Of a stretch of 48,599 bases of DNA, positions 26,558 to 36,852 are shown piece after piece. The DNA is from Natronorubrum halalkaliphilum (lineage in GTDB: Archaea > Halobacteriota > Halobacteria > Halobacteriales > Natrialbaceae). Positions within the stretch are counted from its first letter, which is position 1; each line of letters begins with the position of its first letter. The translations under genes were made by a program, and so were the position numbers. The notes under the pieces were generated by a model. That model ran no database searches and was not told the DNA's origin. It worked only from the letters and a program-made list of their open reading frames with translations. Location of the stretch: NCBI RefSeq assembly GCF_009834785.1, contig NZ_WUYX01000068.1:1-48599 (forward strand), written 5' to 3'.

Positions 26558-29092
26558 TCAGTCGTCGCCGGTTTCGGCGGGTGGGGTCTGTATCTGACTC
26601 GCTTCCCTCAACTCGATCGAACCAACGTGGCGGGCCCAGACGTACAGCAGGCTTGGCAGCACGATCACGCTGGTGACGAACGCACCGAGCAGCGCCAGCA
26701 CGACCAGCCACGCGAAATGCGTAAAGTCCGGCTGCGGATGGATCAACATCCCGGCGAAGGCTGCGACCGAGGTGAGCATACTCCCGAACAGCGCCCCGCC
26801 CGTGCCGGTGACCGCGGTGGACAGCGCGCTAATCGAGTCGTTGCCGCGCTCGAGTTCCTGTGCGAACCGATCGCTGATGTGAATGTTGTAGTCGACGCCG
26901 ATCCCGATGACCAGGCTGATCAGCAGCGCGGTCAGGAACGTAAGCGGAATGTCGAGCAGGGCCATTCCGCCGACGACGAATCCGAGCACCAGCGCGATCG
27001 GTCCGGCCGTGACCGCGCCGAGGGTCGCGCTGTCGTGGACTCGTCTGTAGATCAACGACAGGGCGACGAACACGGCGGCGACGCCGACGACCATCACCTG
27101 CAGGATGCCGTCGGTGATCGTCTCGAGGGTTTGTTGTTGTTCCGTCACGCCGGCAACAGGGGTCGCGGTCAGGTCGTCATCGGTCTCGGCTTCCATCTCG
27201 TCGGCCACCGCGAACAGCTCGTCGGCCTCGTCGTCGCCGGGGGCGATACCGCTCGTTCCTTCCGGCGGCCCGATCACGCGGAGCGATTCGTACTCACCGT
27301 CGGTCCGTTCTATCACCTGAGTCGCCGCTTCGGGGGCGACCTCGAAGAGGTGATCGTAGACCGATTCGAGGTTCGAATCCGGGATCCCGTCACCGCTGGT
27401 GTCCGCCGCCGCGACGGTTTCGGCGAACTCGTCGTCTTCCGCTGCAACGGTCTGAATCACCGTCACCGGCGACTGTATCATGTCGGCGCGCTGCTCGGCG
27501 AACGCGCCCGTTTCGAAGCCGGATTCGATACCGTCGTCCACTGCGGTCAACGCCCCGTCGCTGGCGATGTCGCCCTCGACGAGGAACTGAACCCGATCGC
27601 CCTCGCTATCGGATGCGGTCCGGAACTCGTCGCTGACGTACTCCTGATTCTGGATGACTTCGTTCTCTTCCCAGCCGACCGGTCCGGGGAGGTCCTGTTT
27701 CCACTCGGCGACGTCACCGTCGGGTCCCTGGCCGGCCTCCTCGTCTAGTGCCGTCCACGCCACCCCGCCCGCGGCGGCGGTTATCAGTGCGATCGCGATC
27801 ACGGCCGGCGCGGCCCGCCGTGCGAGCGCGACCGTCCCGTTCAGCAGGGGCTCGATATAGGCGCCGTGACCGAGCGGCTCCTTCCGGCGATCGATCCCGA
27901 CCCGCTCAAGCAGCCGATCGACGGAGAGCTTCAGCGCCGGCACCAGCGTCACGAAGACGATGAACGCCGCGACGACGCCGAGCGTGATGCCGACGGCGAG
28001 CTCTCTGAGCTCGGGGACCGGGTTGAACACGTTCGAGAGGAACCCGATGCTGGCGGTGATCGTCACGAGTCCGAGCGCGAGGGCGAGCGATCGGACGCCG
28101 CGTCGCATCGGCGGGACGATCGGCTCGTCGGGACCCCGCTGTTCGCGATAGCGCATGAACACGTGGAAGCCGTAGTCGATCGAGAGCCCGGCGATGAGCA
28201 CGGGCCCGATAACGGCCGAGGCGCCGACGGGAATGCCGGCCCACCCCAGCAGTCCGAACATCCAGATGATGGAGACGAACACGCCGGTGACACCGACGAG
28301 CACGTCGACCGGGTCGCGGTATGTAAGCGCCGCGACGACGAAGATCAGTCCGAGCACGATCGGCACGATCAGGAAGAGCGTGTTCTCGACGTTCGTGCTC
28401 GCGAGGTCCTCGCCCGCGTGCTCGCCGAGCGTGAAGATCTCCGGGTCGTCGTGGTCCGCAGCAGCGTCGTACAGCGCCTGCTGTGCGTCGCTTGGGGGCT
28501 CCGGATCGTCGCTCTCGAAGACAACGATCAGCTGGTGGCTCTCGGCTGAGGCCGTTCCCGGCTCGTAGCTGTCCGGCACCAAGAGTCCAGCACGTTGGTC
28601 CTCGGAAATCGTCTCCTCGACGAGCGCCGCGACCTCGTCGTCGTCCAGTTCCTCGAGCGCTGCACGCTGTTCATCCAGCGTGGCGTCCGGATCCTCAGCG
28701 GCGCGCTCGCCGACCAGACCGGCGACGCTGAGGACGCCTTCGTCGGCGAGTGACTCGTCGACCCGTTCGTCGTCGGTGATCGCTTCCTGGTACTCAAGCG
28801 TCGTCAGCAACGCGTCCTTCGAGAGCGCGTTGCCGTCTTCGGCGTACACGTACGCGGGTGCTCGAGCGAGTGACTCATCGTCCGCCTGCTGTTGGCCGTA
28901 CTGTTCCTGGATGTACTGTTCTCGCTGTTCGACTGGCGTTTCGATCGAGCCGCCGATTCCCTCCTCGTCGCCGATTTCCGCGTTGGTAATTCCGACGATC
29001 ATCCCCGCGGTGACCAACAACATGACCACCACGACGATGTGGTGATGTGCGGTGACCGTTTCGACGCATCGATCGATCGTGTTCCGAATCAT
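26558..29092 (-). CDS. MMPL/RND superfamily transporter
   Basis: This 844-residue membrane protein has duplicated halves. An N-terminal helix (about 15-38) is followed by an extracellular domain of about 180 residues rich in Asp and Glu. Five helices follow, with the motif GLSIDYGFHVFMRYREQRG. A second helix (AVIAIALITAAAGGVAWTAL) and a second extracellular domain precede five more helices with VIGIGVDYNIHISDRFAQEL. The GxxxDY(G/N)xH motifs match the proton-relay region of MMPL-type exporters. Archaeal members may move lipids or hydrophobic compounds. There is no adaptor or TetR neighbour. It is divergent from the 7TM signalling protein, with 360 bases between the two starts. Confidence 0.92.
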   Translation of the reverse strand: MIRNTIDRCVETVTAHHHIVVVVMLLVTAGMIVGITNAEIGDEEGIGGSIETPVEQREQYIQEQYGQQQADDESLARAPAYVYAEDGNALSKDALLTTLEYQEAITDDERVDESLADEGVLSVAGLVGERAAEDPDATLDEQRAALEELDDDEVAALVEETISEDQRAGLLVPDSYEPGTASAESHQLIVVFESDDPEPPSDAQQALYDAAADHDDPEIFTLGEHAGEDLASTNVENTLFLIVPIVLGLIFVVAALTYRDPVDVLVGVTGVFVSIIWMFGLLGWAGIPVGASAVIGPVLIAGLSIDYGFHVFMRYREQRGPDEPIVPPMRRGVRSLALALGLVTITASIGFLSNVFNPVPELRELAVGITLGVVAAFIVFVTLVPALKLSVDRLLERVGIDRRKEPLGHGAYIEPLLNGTVALARRAAPAVIAIALITAAAGGVAWTALDEEAGQGPDGDVAEWKQDLPGPVGWEENEVIQNQEYVSDEFRTASDSEGDRVQFLVEGDIASDGALTAVDDGIESGFETGAFAEQRADMIQSPVTVIQTVAAEDDEFAETVAAADTSGDGIPDSNLESVYDHLFEVAPEAATQVIERTDGEYESLRVIGPPEGTSGIAPGDDEADELFAVADEMEAETDDDLTATPVAGVTEQQQTLETITDGILQVMVVGVAAVFVALSLIYRRVHDSATLGAVTAGPIALVLGFVVGGMALLDIPLTFLTALLISLVIGIGVDYNIHISDRFAQELERGNDSISALSTAVTGTGGALFGSMLTSVAAFAGMLIHPQPDFTHFAWLVVLALLGAFVTSVIVLPSLLYVWARHVGSIELREASQIQTPPAETGDD

Positions 29093-29452: not shown

Positions 29453-31255
29453 ATGACCACGACTTCGGCGACGACCGCGCTGCAGTACGGTGCCGGGCTC
29501 GGAGCGGTGGTGCTGTCGGGATATTTCGCCGCCGCGATGTTAGAGCGACGCGGAAAGCCGACGGTCCGCCCGCTGCTCCTGCTCGCGGTCGTGGTTGCCG
29601 TCGGTTCCGTTGTGTCTCTCGCGACGAGCTATCCCCCCGTCGAGCGCGCGCTGACGCCTGCCGTCTGGCCCGACGGGGCCGGTTCGTTCTGGGTCGTCTT
29701 GCTGACCGTACTGGTGATCGTTACGTCCGGGCTCTGGTTTCTGTTCGCGCTCCGGTACAGCGGACGGGGCGGGCCGTTGATTCGCCCGGCAGCGGCGACG
29801 GTCGGCGTCTTCTGGGCGCTCATTTTCGGACTGGCCGTCTTCGGTGACGTCTCTCCGCCTCCGGAAGCGGGACAGACCCACGTCGAATTCGCGCTCGGGC
29901 TCGGGGCGTTTTTCATGACGATACTGCTGGCTATCGGCGTTCTGCTCGTTCTGACGACCTCGTTGCAGCAGAACGCGATCGGATTCAGGGAGGGACTCGC
30001 GTTGTCCGGTGGAGCGGTCGCGCTGGCGTTCGGCCCGATCATCGCCAACAGTACCTATCATCCGGCATCGGTCCCGATAACGCTCCTGGCCGCGAGCGGG
30101 CTGTTCTCCCTTGCGGTCCGTCGCTATCCCGTCTTTGAGGCCCCTCCTATCGTCCGGATCGCCGGCCGAGATCGCCTCATCGAGGAGATGGACGACGCGG
30201 TCATCGTCACCGACCTCGAGGATCGGATTCGCGATCTGAACCCTGCAGCCGAGGGTCATTTCGACACCGATCGGAGCGAGGCGTTAGGCGAGCCAGTAGA
30301 GTCGCTGCTCCCCGGTGGACCTGAGCCGAGCGATCTCGAGCGGACCGAGGAGCCGGTCGAACTCCGGACGGCCGCGGAGACCACGCTGGCGGTCACCGCG
30401 AACCGGATCACCGACGCCCGAGACCGAACGTTCGGACACCTCCTGGTCTGTCGAAACGTGACCGAGCGGCGGCGTCGCGAGCGCCGACTGGGCGTCCTCA
30501 ACCAGCTGCTGACCGGCGCGGTCATCGATCGGATGAGCGACGTCGCGGAGAGCGCCGCACCGATAGCCTCGTCGGGACGGGACGGGGGGTCCGACTCTCG
30601 CACGGCGGACGATCCGGCCCCCTCGAGCGTCGGGGCCGAGATACGAGCGCAGACGAGCGAACTCGTCCGACTCGTGACGCGAACCCGCGAGATCGAACGC
30701 GCGCTGGCGGACGAAAGCGCCGCCGAGGCGGACGCCCTCTCGGCGATTCGGAACGTCGCCGACGCGGTCTCCGAGGACGCCGGTATGGATATCGATTTCG
30801 AGGTGGAAGCAGCCGACGCCGTCCCACCGGCGGCGATCGACGCCGCGGTCCTGGAGACGATCCTCGAGACGCTGCTCGCGGACGCGATCGATCGCGAGCG
30901 AAAACGGGTTTCCCTCGAGATCACCGATGCCGGTCGGCAACTGGAGATACACGTCGTCGAGGCCGGACCGACGCCTTCGGAGTCGCCAGGGATGACGAAC
31001 GTCGACGCAGATCGCACTGCGAAGGGCGACGAGGAAGACCGAGAGCGGTGGCTCCGAGAGCTCTCGATCGAGATGGCCCGGCTGGCGGCGACCCACGTCG
31101 GCGGCGACGTCTCGACGCGGTCCGACCGAGACGTTCGACGAGTCGTGCTCGAGGTGCCGACGACCGAGGAGCGTTCCGCGACCGGAACCGAACCGGTTCT
31201 CGTCGACGAGAGTGCCGACGACGGACCGACCGGCGAACGGAGGGAGTCGAGATGA
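29453..31255 (+). CDS. 7TM-PAS sensor with degenerate histidine-kinase core
   Basis: The protein has about 600 residues. Seven membrane helices (about 10-235) match the N-terminal 7TM sensor of haloarchaeal kinases. A PAS domain (about 247-350; LIEEMDDAVIVTDLEDRIRDLN) follows, then the junction RRERRLGVLNQLL that normally leads into the phospho-acceptor box. Here the expected RHNLRND is replaced by TGAVIDRM, so no His is available. The region equivalent to the N-box (ETILETLLADAIDRERKRV) lacks Asn, and no DNGPG or GLGLW glycine boxes are found. It is probably catalytically dead but folded. Its stop overlaps the start of an intact paralogous kinase (ATGA). Expression as a heterodimeric sensor with that kinase is inferred. 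Confidence 0.82.
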   Translation: MTTTSATTALQYGAGLGAVVLSGYFAAAMLERRGKPTVRPLLLLAVVVAVGSVVSLATSYPPVERALTPAVWPDGAGSFWVVLLTVLVIVTSGLWFLFALRYSGRGGPLIRPAAATVGVFWALIFGLAVFGDVSPPPEAGQTHVEFALGLGAFFMTILLAIGVLLVLTTSLQQNAIGFREGLALSGGAVALAFGPIIANSTYHPASVPITLLAASGLFSLAVRRYPVFEAPPIVRIAGRDRLIEEMDDAVIVTDLEDRIRDLNPAAEGHFDTDRSEALGEPVESLLPGGPEPSDLERTEEPVELRTAAETTLAVTANRITDARDRTFGHLLVCRNVTERRRRERRLGVLNQLLTGAVIDRMSDVAESAAPIASSGRDGGSDSRTADDPAPSSVGAEIRAQTSELVRLVTRTREIERALADESAAEADALSAIRNVADAVSEDAGMDIDFEVEAADAVPPAAIDAAVLETILETLLADAIDRERKRVSLEITDAGRQLEIHVVEAGPTPSESPGMTNVDADRTAKGDEEDRERWLRELSIEMARLAATHVGGDVSTRSDRDVRRVVLEVPTTEERSATGTEPVLVDESADDGPTGERRESR

Positions 31256-32883
31256 CGGCGCCGACGACGATCGGTCTCGGCGTCGGTATCGCGTCGACGC
31301 TCGTAATCGTCGCGGCACTGGCCCGCCGGTATCGCGAGCAACCCGGTGCGCGTCCGTTCGTCGTCCTGGCCGTTCTTCTTGCCGCCATGGCGGTCGGCAC
31401 CACGCTGGCGCGGGTCGGGATCGTTTCGGGCCACGCCATCGAAGTCACCGTCTTCTTTCCGCTCGTGTTCGCGCTGCTCGCGTGGCTCGTCCTCGCCTTC
31501 GAGTACACGGGACGAGGGCCGGTAATGACGGAACGCCGGATCGCCGGACTCGTCGGCTTCGGTATCGCCGTCATCTTCGTTTCGGTGGGCGGAATCGTTG
31601 TTCCCGACTCGCTCATGCCGCTCTACATACCGATCGTCAACGTCGTTCAGCTCGCCCTCATCGCGGCGGCCGGCTACGGGGCGGTGCTCGTCGCGCGGTC
31701 GGCGATCAGTTACGACGACCTCCCGCTCAGTGGCAGCCTCCTCCTGACGACCGTCGGGGGCGGACTCACCGCGATCACGATCGTCGTGGCGCTCGTTCCC
31801 GTGGTGTTTCCCTTCGAAGCCGGGGCCGACGCGGTGCAGTTCCTGCTCGGTGCCATCGCCGGTCTCCTGTTGCTCACGCAGGTCAGGTATCGCGTCTTCG
31901 AGACCGGACCCAGCGCCGGGCATCTGGCGCGAGAGACTGTCCTCGACGAGATGTCCGCGGCGGTCGCCATCACTGATCGGAGTGACCGGGTCCTCGACGT
32001 CAACCGAACCGCCGAACGCGCGTTCGGTATCGATCGATCCGAGACGCTCGTCGAACCGATCGACGACGCGTTCGGGATCGGGCCGGACGCGGCCGACGGC
32101 GGTCCCGTTGCGATCGAGACGACGGAGGGCCACCGACAGTTCGACGTGGATCGATTGACGCTTACGGACAGGGATACCCGGCCGATCGGTCGGGCCGTCT
32201 TGCTCCGAGACGTGACCGAACGACGGACCCACGAACAGCGTCTCGACGTTCTCAACAGGGTGTTGCGGCACAACCTCAGGAACGATCTGGACGCCGTCCG
32301 CGGATTCGCCGAGGCGCTCGAGCGAGAGGAGACCGACGATCCCGGGGCGCTCGCCGAACGGATCCACGCCTCAGCGACCGATCTGGTGGCGCTCGGATCA
32401 GCGCTCGAACGGGCCGAGCGACTGCTCGCTCGAGAGACGCGCGAACGCGACTGCGTCGACGTGCCGGCGATCCTCCGGCGGGTCGCGGAGACGGTGGACG
32501 ACGCGGCGTCCGACGTCTCGATCACAGTTTCGGCGTCCGACGCGCCGATCGAACTCCGGACCGACGTCCAGATACTCGAGACCGTCCTGGAGGAGGCCGT
32601 CGAGAACGCGATCGAGCACACCGACGCCGACGCGCCGCGCGTCGAACTCTCGGTCCGCCGGGAGCGATCGGAGGTGGTGATTGATATCGCGGACAACGGG
32701 CCGGGAATCCCGGCACAGGAGCGGGCGGTGTTACTCGAGGGCGAGGAGACGCCGCTTCGCCACGGGAGCGGCCTCGGCCTGTGGTTGATCTACTGGGGCG
32801 TGACCCGACTCGGCGGCGACCTCGAGTTCGACGAGAATGAGCCCCGCGGAAGCCTCGTCTCGCTTCGAATTCCCATAACGTAG
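31252..32883 (+). CDS. 7TM-PAS histidine kinase
   Basis: This 543-residue membrane kinase has seven helices at about 5-215 and a PAS domain (about 225-320; EMSAAVAITDRSDRVLDVNRTAERAFG). The H-box is VLNRVLRHNLRNDLDAVRGF. The HATPase_c domain has EEAVENAIEHTDADAP (N-box), VIDIADNGPGIPAQER (G1) and HGSGLGLWLIYWGVTRLGGDL (G2). All residues needed for autophosphorylation appear present. The ATG lies inside the stop of the degenerate paralogue, so the pair is likely coupled. A longer upstream frame exists but runs through the paralogue. The nearest receiver protein, a HalX regulator, is 0.7 kb downstream and could be the partner. Confidence 0.9.
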   Translation: MTAPTTIGLGVGIASTLVIVAALARRYREQPGARPFVVLAVLLAAMAVGTTLARVGIVSGHAIEVTVFFPLVFALLAWLVLAFEYTGRGPVMTERRIAGLVGFGIAVIFVSVGGIVVPDSLMPLYIPIVNVVQLALIAAAGYGAVLVARSAISYDDLPLSGSLLLTTVGGGLTAITIVVALVPVVFPFEAGADAVQFLLGAIAGLLLLTQVRYRVFETGPSAGHLARETVLDEMSAAVAITDRSDRVLDVNRTAERAFGIDRSETLVEPIDDAFGIGPDAADGGPVAIETTEGHRQFDVDRLTLTDRDTRPIGRAVLLRDVTERRTHEQRLDVLNRVLRHNLRNDLDAVRGFAEALEREETDDPGALAERIHASATDLVALGSALERAERLLARETRERDCVDVPAILRRVAETVDDAASDVSITVSASDAPIELRTDVQILETVLEEAVENAIEHTDADAPRVELSVRRERSEVVIDIADNGPGIPAQERAVLLEGEETPLRHGSGLGLWLIYWGVTRLGGDLEFDENEPRGSLVSLRIPIT

Positions 32884-32935: not shown

Positions 32936-33370
32936 TTACCGGGAGGCGATGCGGACGGACTTCCGCCGGCTGGATTCCGAAACTGCACACGACGAGGGTT
33001 CGACGTCGACGCTGAATTCGCCGCCGTCGAATCGGAGGACCGCTTCCTCGAACGCCGCGCTGTACCGTTTGTAGTGGTGCCCGTTCGGGTCGAGAACAAA
33101 CTGACTCGTCACGAGCCCCGCGTTCTCGAGTCGGTGGAGGTGGCGATACGCGGTCGGTTCCGAGACTGATGCTACCTCGGCCGCTTCGCCCGCGGTCCGT
33201 GACCGATCGGCGACCGCTCGGAGGATTTCTCGGGCGTACTCGTCGCCCAGGAGTTCGAGCACGCTCGAGGCGGTCTCCGCCGAGTCACGGTCGGATCGCT
33301 CTCCACCGTCGTGAGGGGGATCGAAATCGATGCCGTCACCGTTGGCGTTTCGAACGCGTGTTCTCGTCAT
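32936..33370 (-). CDS. winged-helix (ArsR-like) transcriptional regulator
   Basis: This 144-residue protein has a helix-turn-helix at about 33-90: SSVLELLGDEYAREILRAVADRSRTAGEAAEVASVSEPTAYRHLHRLENAGLV. A wing and a short beta tail follow (HHYKRYSAAFEEAVLRFDGGEFSVDVE). This layout is common among small haloarchaeal HTH_20/ArsR-type regulators, often found near sensor kinases and acting as one-component repressors or activators. No Cys metal site is seen apart from a single C-terminal Cys. It converges with the kinase gene and diverges from the HalX regulator, about 200 bases away. Confidence 0.85.
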   Translation of the reverse strand: MTRTRVRNANGDGIDFDPPHDGGERSDRDSAETASSVLELLGDEYAREILRAVADRSRTAGEAAEVASVSEPTAYRHLHRLENAGLVTSQFVLDPNGHHYKRYSAAFEEAVLRFDGGEFSVDVEPSSCAVSESSRRKSVRIASR

Positions 33371-33571
33371 TGCTTACCAGCAACCATGACCGGCACGACC
33401 CTGTGAGTCGTCGCTAGGAGTTCAAACCCGTCTTCTCGACTCGATCTAGTAATCTAGATCGCGGCGCCCGGTGCGACGGTGAGGGGTTCTGTTCACGCTG
33501 TCGACGACGCGTGATGATTGGGATACATTTTACGGCTCCGCGGTGTAACGTCGACCGAGAGTCACGTTCAT

Positions 33572-34156
33572 ATGCCGGACCAGACCGAGGAAGATAACCT
33601 GCCGAGGGCGCTCGTCGTCGACGACGAGCGGGAGGTCGCGGACGCCTACGCGCTTCGACTGCGCGGCCTCTGTGACGTCCGTACCACCTATGCCGGCGAT
33701 ACCGCACTCGAGATCCTCGGCGACGAGGAAATCGATATCGTCCTGCTCGACCGACACATGCCCGGCCTGTCGGGCGACGAGGTGCTCGCCGAACTCGACG
33801 AACGGGAGTACTACGGCCGGATCGTCATGGTGACGGCCATCGACCCCGGATTCGACGTGCTCGATATGCCGTTCGACGACTACCTCTGCAAACCGGTCGA
33901 ACGCGAAGACGTGCGGGCCGCCGTCGAACAGCAGTGTGCCGTCCTCGGCTACGAGACCCTTGGTGCGTACTTCCAGATTGAGGCGAAACGCAGCGTCCTC
34001 GAAGCCGAACTTCCCGCAACCGAACTGGCCGATCGCAACGACTACCGCGAACTGGCCGATCGCGCGGAACAACTCCGGCGGCGCGCGAACCGACTGCTCG
34101 ACGATCCGAGCGAGCTGCTCGACACGTTCGACGCCGTCGGTCGAGAGGGGCGGTGA
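33572..34156 (+). CDS. HalX-domain response regulator
   Basis: This 194-residue protein has a receiver domain at 10-120. ALVVDDEREVADAYALRLRG carries the acidic pocket, VLLDRHMPGLSGDEVL the phospho-acceptor Asp, MVTAIDPGFD the switch Thr, and DYLCKPVEREDV the conserved Lys. The C-terminal HalX domain (about 125-190; AYFQIEAKRSVLEAELPATELADRNDYRELADRAEQLRR) is haloarchaeal and helical, with no known DNA-binding motif. The ATG at 33572 gives the correct N-terminus; an upstream Met adds 18 atypical residues. It lies close to two kinases, either of which could phosphorylate it. Only two bases separate its stop from the convergent Bat-like gene's stop. Confidence 0.92.
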   Translation: MPDQTEEDNLPRALVVDDEREVADAYALRLRGLCDVRTTYAGDTALEILGDEEIDIVLLDRHMPGLSGDEVLAELDEREYYGRIVMVTAIDPGFDVLDMPFDDYLCKPVEREDVRAAVEQQCAVLGYETLGAYFQIEAKRSVLEAELPATELADRNDYRELADRAEQLRRRANRLLDDPSELLDTFDAVGREGR

Positions 34157-34158
34157 TC

Positions 34159-35742
34159 TCAGTTCCCCTCGCGCACCTCCTCGCTCTCCTCGAGTTCGAC
34201 GCCGGTCTTGTCGCTCTCGGGATCGAAAAACGAGGCCAATAGCTTTCGCTGTCCCGCCCGAAGGTGATAGAGTAACGTCGGCCCCGTGATACCGAGGGCG
34301 TCGGCGACGTCTTCGGCGCTGCTCTCGCGGGGTGACTCGAAGTAGTCCGCGAAAAACGCCGTTCTGAGCGCGTTCGCCTGATGATCGGTCAGCCGATCGC
34401 GCAGTTCGTCGCGGAACTCCCGCGCCGTCGTCGTCGAGCGCTCGCGTTGCTGTTTGGCGATCACGGCGGCGTCGAACGTTCGGGTCACCGCGTCGGCGAT
34501 TCGACGGACGTCCTCTTCCGGCGGGAGTTCGATCACGATTCGTCCGGACCCGGCCTCGTACTTGGCCGATCGAACCGTCGCGCCTCGAGTCGACAGTCTC
34601 CCGAGCGGCGTCCCCTCCCCGAGGGTGAGCTCCACCGATCCCTCGTCCCCGTAGTCGGCAACCACGCGCACGCGTTCGACGGCGTCTTCGACCGTCAGCG
34701 CGTTGGCGACTCGGTGCGGTTCGTCGTCGACGGAGAGATAACAGAGCGGCCGGCCGTCGCGCTGGGGGACCAGTCCGTCGAGCGAGAGCGTGACGTCGAA
34801 CTCGGCGGCCACCGCAACCAGCGGCGTTTCGGCGTCGGTGATCTCGAACGTGAGTTCGACGACCGTATCGGACAGCAGGATGTTTCGATGGCGGGTCGCG
34901 TTCACCGCGAAGCCGGCCATCTCGCCGACCGTCGCGAAACTCGCCCGTTCGCGCTCCGAGAAGGCGTCCCGATCGGACGCGTAGACGCCGACCGCACCGT
35001 ACACGTTCGTCCCGTAGGTCAGCGGAATCGCGAGCAGCGATTGGAGGCCGTCGGCGAACGCCGCCCGCCGGACGGACTCGGGAACGGACGGGTCCTCGCC
35101 GACCGACTCGATAACCTCCGGCGTCCCCGTTTCGACGGCTCGTTCCTCGGGGACGGTCGTGGGTCCGTCGAGGTGTTCCGTGACTCGCTCGAGCGTTCGG
35201 CCCGTCGTCCCAGCCGCTGCTCGCACGGCGATTCGGTCGTCGCCGAGTTCCCGCTCGCCGAACCAGGCGAACTCGTAGATGTCGGACTCGCCCAGCCGTT
35301 CACAGATCGTCTCGGCGATTTCTTCGCGGGTCGACGCGTCGATGAGTTCGTTCAGGATCTCCGAGATGAGCCCGTTGAGCACGACGATTCGGTCGAGATC
35401 GTCGCGGAGCCGATCGTTCGTTCGTTCCGTTCGGCGTCCAGCCGTCCGATCGCGGAGAAACAGCGTCACGCTCTCGTCGGTCGGAACGAGGGACACCTCG
35501 AGCCACCGGTCCAGTTCCGGGTAGTACTCTTCGACCGACTGCTCGTCGGCGATCGTCTCCCCGATCGCGTTCGGGACGGTATCCTCGACCGAGCGGGGAA
35601 AGACGTCGTTGATTGTGCGGGCGGCGGCGGCCTCTGGATCGACGTCGAGTAGCTCGCTCCCGGCGTCGTTGATCGCCGTCACCGTTCCGTCCCGGTCGAC
35701 CTCGAGTACCCCGATCGGTGCGCGTTCGAGTCGTTCGTTCAT
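34159..35742 (-). CDS. Bat-like PAS/GAF/HTH-10 transcriptional regulator
   Basis: This 527-residue bacterio-opsin-activator-type regulator has a PAS at about 1-100 (ERAPIGVLEVDRDGTVTAIN) and a GAF at about 115-270 (LQSLLAIPLTYGTNVYGAVGVYASD). A BAT-specific beta domain lies at about 285-430 (VVELTFEITDAETPLVAVA and IVIELPPEEDVRRI). The C-terminal HTH-10 (about 450-510) shows LTDHQANALRTAFFADYFESPRESSAEDVADALGITGPTLLYHLRAGQRKLL. Such regulators respond to light, oxygen or redox and switch operons such as bacteriorhodopsin. The ATG at 35742 gives the PAS start; an upstream TTG is less likely. It follows the kinase gene by 18 bases and is surely cotranscribed with it. Confidence 0.93.
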   Translation of the reverse strand: MNERLERAPIGVLEVDRDGTVTAINDAGSELLDVDPEAAAARTINDVFPRSVEDTVPNAIGETIADEQSVEEYYPELDRWLEVSLVPTDESVTLFLRDRTAGRRTERTNDRLRDDLDRIVVLNGLISEILNELIDASTREEIAETICERLGESDIYEFAWFGERELGDDRIAVRAAAGTTGRTLERVTEHLDGPTTVPEERAVETGTPEVIESVGEDPSVPESVRRAAFADGLQSLLAIPLTYGTNVYGAVGVYASDRDAFSERERASFATVGEMAGFAVNATRHRNILLSDTVVELTFEITDAETPLVAVAAEFDVTLSLDGLVPQRDGRPLCYLSVDDEPHRVANALTVEDAVERVRVVADYGDEGSVELTLGEGTPLGRLSTRGATVRSAKYEAGSGRIVIELPPEEDVRRIADAVTRTFDAAVIAKQQRERSTTTAREFRDELRDRLTDHQANALRTAFFADYFESPRESSAEDVADALGITGPTLLYHLRAGQRKLLASFFDPESDKTGVELEESEEVREGN

Positions 35743-35760
35743 CGTCTTTTCTCGCCTCAA

Positions 35761-36852
35761 TTAGCGCGTCTCGAGTCCGGTAATCTCGACCCGTGCGCCG
35801 CCGCGTTCGGCGTCCGTCACGGCGACCGACCAGCCGTGGGCCGTCGCGATCCGCTCGACGATCGCCAACCCGAGCCCGGTCCCGGTGTCGCCAGCGGTGA
35901 ATCCGGGCTCGAAGACCGCCTCGCGGTGATCGGGATCGATCCCCGGCCCGTCGTCCGCGACGTAGAACCCGTCCGATCCGACGACGCCGACGGTAATCTG
36001 TGGGTGGGTTCCGCCGTGTTCGATCGCGTTTCGAAACAGGTTCTCGAAGAGTCGATCCACGCGATCCCGATCGGCGGTGACCGTCGGCAACGAGTCGTCG
36101 AATCGCAGTTCCGTTTCGTCGGTTTCGACGGTCTCCCAGACCGCCTCGGCGGCGGCCTCGAGATCAACTGCGTCCCCGGGATCGATCACGTCCTCGCTCC
36201 GGGCCAGTGTCAGAACGTCTTCGATGATTCGCTCCATCCGATCGTGGGCCCGCGCGACGCGCTCGAGGTGCTCGTCGTCCCCCGTTTCTCGACCGGCTCG
36301 AAGGCGGGCCTTCGCGACGTCGAGCGGATTCCGGAGATCGTGGCTGACGACGCTCGCGACGGGGTCCATCGCAAGTCGTGCGGGCTCATCGTCGCCGGAC
36401 GTCTCGACGAAGAGAACGTAGCCGATGGTCTCCTCGGCGGGCGGGATTGCTCGCGCGAGATATCGCGTCCCCGATGTGGCAGCCGGCTCGACACGGACGG
36501 TACACCCGCCATCGTCCAGGAGACAGTCGGGAAACGCGAGCGAGGAATCGCGAACGGTGATCTCCGCGTCGTCGAAAACCGTCGAAAGTGGCGTCTCGGT
36601 CGAGACCGTCCCGAACCTGTCCTCGAACGGACCGTTGGCGTCTACGATGACCGGTCGCTCGTCCCCGATCGCGTAACTCAGCGCGGGATCGAGATAGCGC
36701 TCGAGTGGTAGCGCTTCGCCGTGGGTCTCGGCCTCGTCGGTGGTCATCTTTGCGTCCTGTTCGGCGGTATCGACCGACATCGCGATTCGCTGACGACCCC
36801 GGCCGCTCGTCCCCCGACACAGCGATGTAGCGTCACTCGTTCCATTTACCAT
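35761..36852 (-). CDS. soluble sensor histidine kinase
   Basis: This protein of up to 363 residues has no membrane helices. A degenerate PAS-like region (about 50-160; LSYAIGDERPVIVDANGPFEDRFG) is followed by a HisKA domain with VASVVSHDLRNPLDVAKARL. The ATPase domain has LFENLFRNAIEHGG (N-box), FYVADDGPGIDPDHREAVFEPGF (G1/F) and TGTGLGLAIVERIATAHGW (G2). All catalytic residues appear intact. A TATA-like TGTATAGCTA about 36 bases upstream supports the ATG at 36852, but an internal ATG at 36780 is also possible. It is in an operon with the Bat-like regulator and may signal to it or to the HalX regulator. Confidence 0.92.
   Translation of the reverse strand: MVNGTSDATSLCRGTSGRGRQRIAMSVDTAEQDAKMTTDEAETHGEALPLERYLDPALSYAIGDERPVIVDANGPFEDRFGTVSTETPLSTVFDDAEITVRDSSLAFPDCLLDDGGCTVRVEPAATSGTRYLARAIPPAEETIGYVLFVETSGDDEPARLAMDPVASVVSHDLRNPLDVAKARLRAGRETGDDEHLERVARAHDRMERIIEDVLTLARSEDVIDPGDAVDLEAAAEAVWETVETDETELRFDDSLPTVTADRDRVDRLFENLFRNAIEHGGTHPQITVGVVGSDGFYVADDGPGIDPDHREAVFEPGFTAGDTGTGLGLAIVERIATAHGWSVAVTDAERGGARVEITGLETR

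Follow-up and report, generated by a model that had tools for sequence, protein, structure and literature searches.

Conserved pairing of a predicted 7TM-PAS pseudo-histidine-kinase with an intact paralogous kinase in haloarchaea, and its probable role as a regulatory subunit

We analyzed a window of 48,599 nucleotides from Natronorubrum halalkaliphilum (contig NZ_WUYX01000068.1, positions 1 to 48,599, forward strand). Two adjacent genes in this window, here called A and B, encode proteins that align with each other end to end (29% identity, E = 5e-32). The features of the pair are as follows.

29453-31255, plus strand: gene A, 7TM-PAS pseudo-histidine-kinase, 600 aa (translation, Pfam, orthologues)
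29453-30148, plus strand: 7TM sensor of A, residues 1-232 (HisKA_7TM, PF16927, E = 6.2e-7; helices in the model)
30170-30478, plus strand: PAS domain of A, residues 240-342 (PAS_4/PAS matches; PAS-like strands, pLDDT about 90)
30461-30709, plus strand: DHp-like helical hairpin of A, residues 337-419 (AlphaFold helices 337-376 and 390-419; alignment columns)
30728-31162, plus strand: CA-like domain of A, residues 426-570, with the N, G1 and G2 boxes lost (model, alignment of 36 orthologues, Foldseek)
31239-31243, plus strand: GGAGG, ribosome-binding site of B lying within the 3' end of A (sequence)
31252-31255, plus strand: ATGA stop/start overlap from A to B (sequence; RTGA in 33 of 36 pairs)
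31252-32883, plus strand: gene B, intact 7TM-PAS-HisKA-HATPase histidine kinase, 543 aa (translation, Pfam, orthologues)
32269-32271, plus strand: codon of the phosphoacceptor His340 of B (H-box RHNLRND)

The start of A at 29453 is consistent with the orthologue alignment, and the frame is open throughout, as a preliminary description of this DNA had stated. The exact coordinates and reading frames, together with Pfam, likewise bore out its account of 7TM and PAS parts in both proteins and of genes overlapping by ATGA. B matched HisKA_7TM, PAS, HisKA and HATPase_c (E = 6.5e-17 for the last). With its H-box histidine and its N, G1 and G2 boxes, as that description had it, B is predicted from its sequence to be a histidine kinase of the HisKA-HATPase type. 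In A, Pfam detected only HisKA_7TM and PAS, with no match to HisKA or HATPase. Just upstream of A and divergent from it, a large MMPL/RND-type transporter is encoded on the minus strand (26558-29092).

An AlphaFold model of A, built with 26 orthologues, had a mean pLDDT of 82, with a confident DHp hairpin and an alpha/beta order like that of a CA domain kept up to residue 570. When the model was searched with Foldseek, the top crystal-structure matches were PAS-DHp-CA histidine kinases (best E = 3.3e-11), and the NifL-NifA complex was also among the matches; overall TM-scores were low because the domain arrangement differs. At the 20 DHp core columns that are hydrophobic in B, the A proteins were hydrophobic in 81% of alignment cells, as against 24% in other columns. 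Arg412 (30686-30688), in the second DHp helix, was invariant in all 36 A proteins, and B most often has Glu at this position. Arg412 is therefore, from the alignment, a candidate determinant of heterodimer formation.

Homologues of the pair were sought at several taxonomic depths. No orthologue of A was found in nine congeners in a search within the genus, which suggested that A was a singleton. This idea was overturned by a family search, which recovered A orthologues in three genomes (57, 43 and 34% identity), and by a search of the order (an even draw of 392 genomes), which added about twenty more genomes. In a class-wide draw, 26 of 391 genomes gave a match at the strict threshold. Ten of the pair loci were added from the family and class searches, and a scan of named genomes was queried with the B alignment, A alone as query having returned no related loci. 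The resulting set comprised 36 complete A-B pairs in 35 genomes (35 pairs from 34 genomes other than that of N. halalkaliphilum), which represent six haloarchaeal families of one order. Carriers among the named genomes include Natronococcus pandeyae, Haloarchaeobius, Halovivax asiaticus, Halorhabdus, Halovenus, Halorientalis, Salinarchaeum, Candidatus Halobonum and a Halococcaceae MAG.

The pairing was strict. In the flanking DNA of every complete case, the gene immediately after A was a B orthologue, and A was never encountered without B in the loci examined. The scores of the best 80 B-like loci in the named genomes were bimodal: B proteins above 455 bits all had A directly upstream, and those at or below 421 bits all lacked A, with the exception of locus L124. 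The latter was considered as an unpaired B inside the B clade and rejected, since its contig begins inside A and the C-terminus of A lies at the contig edge. The junction was conserved as well. A four-base RTGA overlap occurred at 33 of 36 junctions, and the remaining three apparently overlap by a few bases. A Shine-Dalgarno match of at least 5 nt lay within the end of A at 28 of 36 junctions, compared with a mean of 8.75 and a maximum of 15 in shuffled sequences. These signals indicate that translational coupling of A to B is conserved across the pairs.

The catalytic residues of A are lost throughout this set. In N. halalkaliphilum, His340 of B (RHNLRND) aligns with Gly355 of A (30515-30517; LLTGAVIDRM), which agrees with the earlier reading that the H-box of A was replaced and its N and G boxes lost; the alignment of orthologous pairs called for in the preliminary description extended this reading to the entire family. 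At the phosphoacceptor position, the 36 A proteins had Glu (14), Gly (11), Asp (9) or Ser (1), with one unaligned, and none had His. The N-box Asn was present in 0 of 36 A proteins (mostly Asp, 22) versus 36 of 36 B proteins, and the G1 and G2 glycines were mostly gone from A. In B, by comparison, His340 and Asn452 were intact in all 36 orthologues, and the G1 and G2 glycines were kept except for single substitutions and one truncated sequence. Both the His and the Asn were retained in 67 of 67 B relatives that have no A partner and were taken as a control. The uniform loss in A, set against intact unpaired relatives, indicates that it is the property of one clade and not of one genome. Among the 36 pairs, no frame-broken A was found in any relative, and no A was active by these residues.

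Judged by the same residues, A lacks the phosphoacceptor His and the ATP-binding boxes that define a histidine kinase, and its annotation as one is misleading. We regard A as a pseudo-histidine-kinase, because a kinase fold is predicted to be kept, the catalytic residues are lost and the gene appears to be under selection (see below). In 23 of the 36 A proteins, an acidic residue stands where the phosphoacceptor was lost, and it may mimic a fixed charge state.

One tree was built on the 7TM and PAS columns alone, so that the dead core could not group the A proteins artificially. In this tree, A and B each formed one clade (support 98 and 90, respectively), and in a full-length tree the A clade had a support of 100. 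The branching orders of A and B agreed almost everywhere (Mantel r = 0.966 between distance matrices, with none of 5000 permutations as high), indicating that A and B have been passed on as a pair from a time before today's copies separated. Mirrored trees and co-inheritance follow from tandem inheritance alone, however, and are no proof of contact between A and B. Transfer between families is likely, because the Halovivax pair groups with sequences of family f4 and the congeners of N. halalkaliphilum lack the pair. In the sensor-only tree, A sat on a long branch and joined other kinases weakly (59), and we therefore make no claim of an origin of A by in-place duplication of B. Rough estimates of omega (NG86, dS up to 1.4) were 0.24-0.45 for whole A and 0.17-0.40 for whole B, values indicating that A is under purifying selection. 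Together with the strict pairing, co-inheritance and conserved coupling, this lends good support to the earlier proposal that A has been retained for a signaling role.

Downstream of B lies a group of further regulatory genes.

32936-33370, minus strand: ArsR/HTH_20-type winged-helix protein (Pfam; recurrent neighbor)
33518-34156, plus strand: REC-HalX response regulator, candidate target of B (Pfam; recurrent neighbor)
34159-35760, minus strand: PAS-GAF-BAT-HTH_10 (Bat-type) transcription regulator (Pfam; recurrent neighbor)
35761-36852, minus strand: second, soluble HisKA-HATPase kinase (Pfam; recurrent neighbor)

This neighborhood (32936-36852) recurs with the pairs across families in shuffled order. 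Within a few kb, an HTH homologue was found near 23 of the 35 other pairs, as against 5 of the 63 control loci with an unpaired kinase. The corresponding counts were 22 of 35 versus 7 of 63 for a HalX orthologue (59-72% identity near the pairs, some of the control matches being at lower identity) and 22 of 35 versus 6 of 63 for a Bat-type homologue. Matches to the soluble kinase occurred near 24 of the 35 pairs, and weak ones also near 22 of the 63 controls. In most loci, A is immediately preceded by the HTH gene on the same strand, and HalX diverges from the HTH gene. The nine congeners without A also gave no HalX orthologue, and the neighborhood is thus an accessory module. The HTH and HalX genes, in some cases with Bat and kinase genes, were also located near a single intact 7TM-PAS kinase, belonging to the clade sister to B, in loci L099 (1083-4198), L108 (5839-13525) and L121 (5320-13562), and an unpaired sister-clade kinase lies near them in L122. 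These sister-clade kinases indicate that the module also occurs with one kinase only.

Since the dead core is conserved in 36 pairs, A very probably works as a regulatory partner and is not a gene in decay, and an allosteric action on B seems to us the best explanation. We hypothesize, with a probability of about 0.62, that A is an obligate dead sensory subunit, which joins B in a complex and sets the balance of kinase and phosphatase activities of B toward the HalX regulator, a proposal built on sequence comparison and structural modeling. Translational coupling would provide A and B at a fixed ratio. Assembly would most likely proceed through the DHp four-helix bundle, giving either a hetero-dimer or a hetero-oligomer of homodimers; homodimers of A could also form. 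With its 7TM and PAS domains, A would sense an input of its own, and it would shift B between kinase and phosphatase states. As the phosphoacceptor His and ATP binding reside on B alone, autophosphorylation of B would be in cis within an A-B dimer. The phosphoryl group would then most likely pass to the neighboring REC-HalX regulator, and the HTH and Bat-type proteins would be likely output partners. The HalX target is uncertain, because about a third of the pairs have no HalX gene in the stretch examined. Sensor kinases are normally homodimers. A more specific version, which we offer only tentatively, is that the pair constitutes an obligate heteromeric two-input archaeal receptor, an asymmetric sensor kinase by design whose catalytic role falls to one subunit while the other acts only allosterically, and in which A-specific residues of the Arg412 type would enforce the heterodimer over the homodimer.

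Several other roles for A were weighed against this proposal. A might be a dedicated inhibitor resembling RetS, whose heterodimers with B sequester the kinase or whose binding blocks the DHp surface of B until a signal to A frees it. RetS-GacS has the same general anatomy (PMC6944256), and the preserved hydrophobic DHp core of A is compatible with such binding. This would be a special case of A-B assembly with a fixed negative sign, and we consider it unlikely, because the coupling of A to B suggests a constitutive complex, although the sign of the effect cannot be read from sequence. Alternatively, A could act in parallel to B as a separate receptor or scaffold, with its dead core bound to the HTH protein or to the response regulator and not to the core of B. 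The position of the HTH gene directly before A in most loci fits this idea, and so does NifL-NifA, in which a kinase-like core can be a binding domain. However, A occurs only with B and never with HTH or HalX alone, whereas HTH and HalX do adjoin single intact kinases, which makes a scaffold role improbable.

It could also be argued that only the 7TM and PAS domains of A matter, with coupling to B through the membrane domains and the dead core drifting as ballast. The CA-like domain is indeed the least conserved part of A, with a mean pairwise identity of 25% against 47% in B, and its omega is the highest (about 0.33-0.58, a rough NG86 estimate that is relaxed yet below 1). Nevertheless, omega in the DHp-like part (0.15-0.52, equally rough) falls as low as 0.15, Arg412 is invariant, the fold is predicted with confidence and none of the 36 A proteins has lost the core by truncation, so that we regard ballast as very unlikely compared with an assembling allosteric subunit. 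Finally, although every catalytic box of A is gone, we rejected the reading of A as a pseudogene or a recent remnant of tandem duplication, given its intact frame, a dead state conserved in six families, purifying selection and conserved coupling.

To our knowledge, few natural pseudo-histidine-kinases have been described, nearly all of them bacterial; nor do we know of RetS and GacS being co-translated from tandem, translationally coupled genes, or of DivL sharing an operon with CckA. DivL carries multiple PAS domains and senses the regulator DivK, whereas A has the 7TM-PAS architecture of a receptor and is coupled to B. In Caulobacter, the pseudo-histidine-kinase DivL controls the active kinase CckA and can dispense with its own ATPase domain and phosphoacceptor (summarized in PMC9491836). 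In Pseudomonas aeruginosa, RetS inhibits another sensor kinase, GacS, through heterodimer formation (PMC6944256; discussed in PMC12675982). The A-B pair would likewise have a histidine-kinase-like membrane protein modulating an active kinase by hetero-association; unlike RetS, A is devoid of the His and the ATP-binding boxes and occurs only alongside its kinase. FasB and FasC of group A Streptococcus form a heterodimer and no homodimer, and FasC has been proposed as a pseudokinase, although its phosphoacceptor H246 is kept and is phosphorylated in the FasBC model (PMC12675982). As in FasBC, two membrane histidine-kinase-like genes and one regulator gene are encoded together; A and B are adjacent in all cases, and the regulator, HalX, is near the 22 pairs counted above and at the N. 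halalkaliphilum locus, but not always in one operon. Unlike FasC, no A has the His, and phosphate flow must therefore stay within B.

In Corynebacterium glutamicum, a catalytically inactive ChrS alters signaling by its paralogue HrrS (PMC9491836); that pseudokinase is a laboratory frameshift mutant, whereas A is a conserved natural gene. Galperin et al. (2018) described archaeal nonenzymatic histidine-kinase-like proteins, mostly from Archaeoglobi and Methanomicrobia, in which the HisKA His is kept and the HATPase is absent (PMC5847659). A resembles them as an archaeal sensor with a kinase-like C-terminus and, as predicted from its lost boxes, no kinase activity, but is haloarchaeal and their converse, with the His absent and a degenerate CA-like domain kept, and so falls outside their definition. 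The same authors noted that HalX has no documented function (PMC5847659). In the open literature searched, we found no description of an archaeal kinase/pseudokinase pair of the A-B type. Bacterial analogues are known (RetS-GacS, DivL-CckA, FasC-FasB), and the haloarchaeal variant appears to be new.

The role of a dead sensor kinase becomes directly testable here in genetically tractable haloarchaea, and the uncharacterized HalX regulators would gain a candidate input. The closely related single-kinase modules beside the same HTH and HalX genes serve as a built-in control, and the 36 archaeal kinase/pseudokinase pairs form a naturally replicated set. One genome in this set, the Halococcaceae MAG (G210), carries two divergent A-B pairs (L062 and L083).
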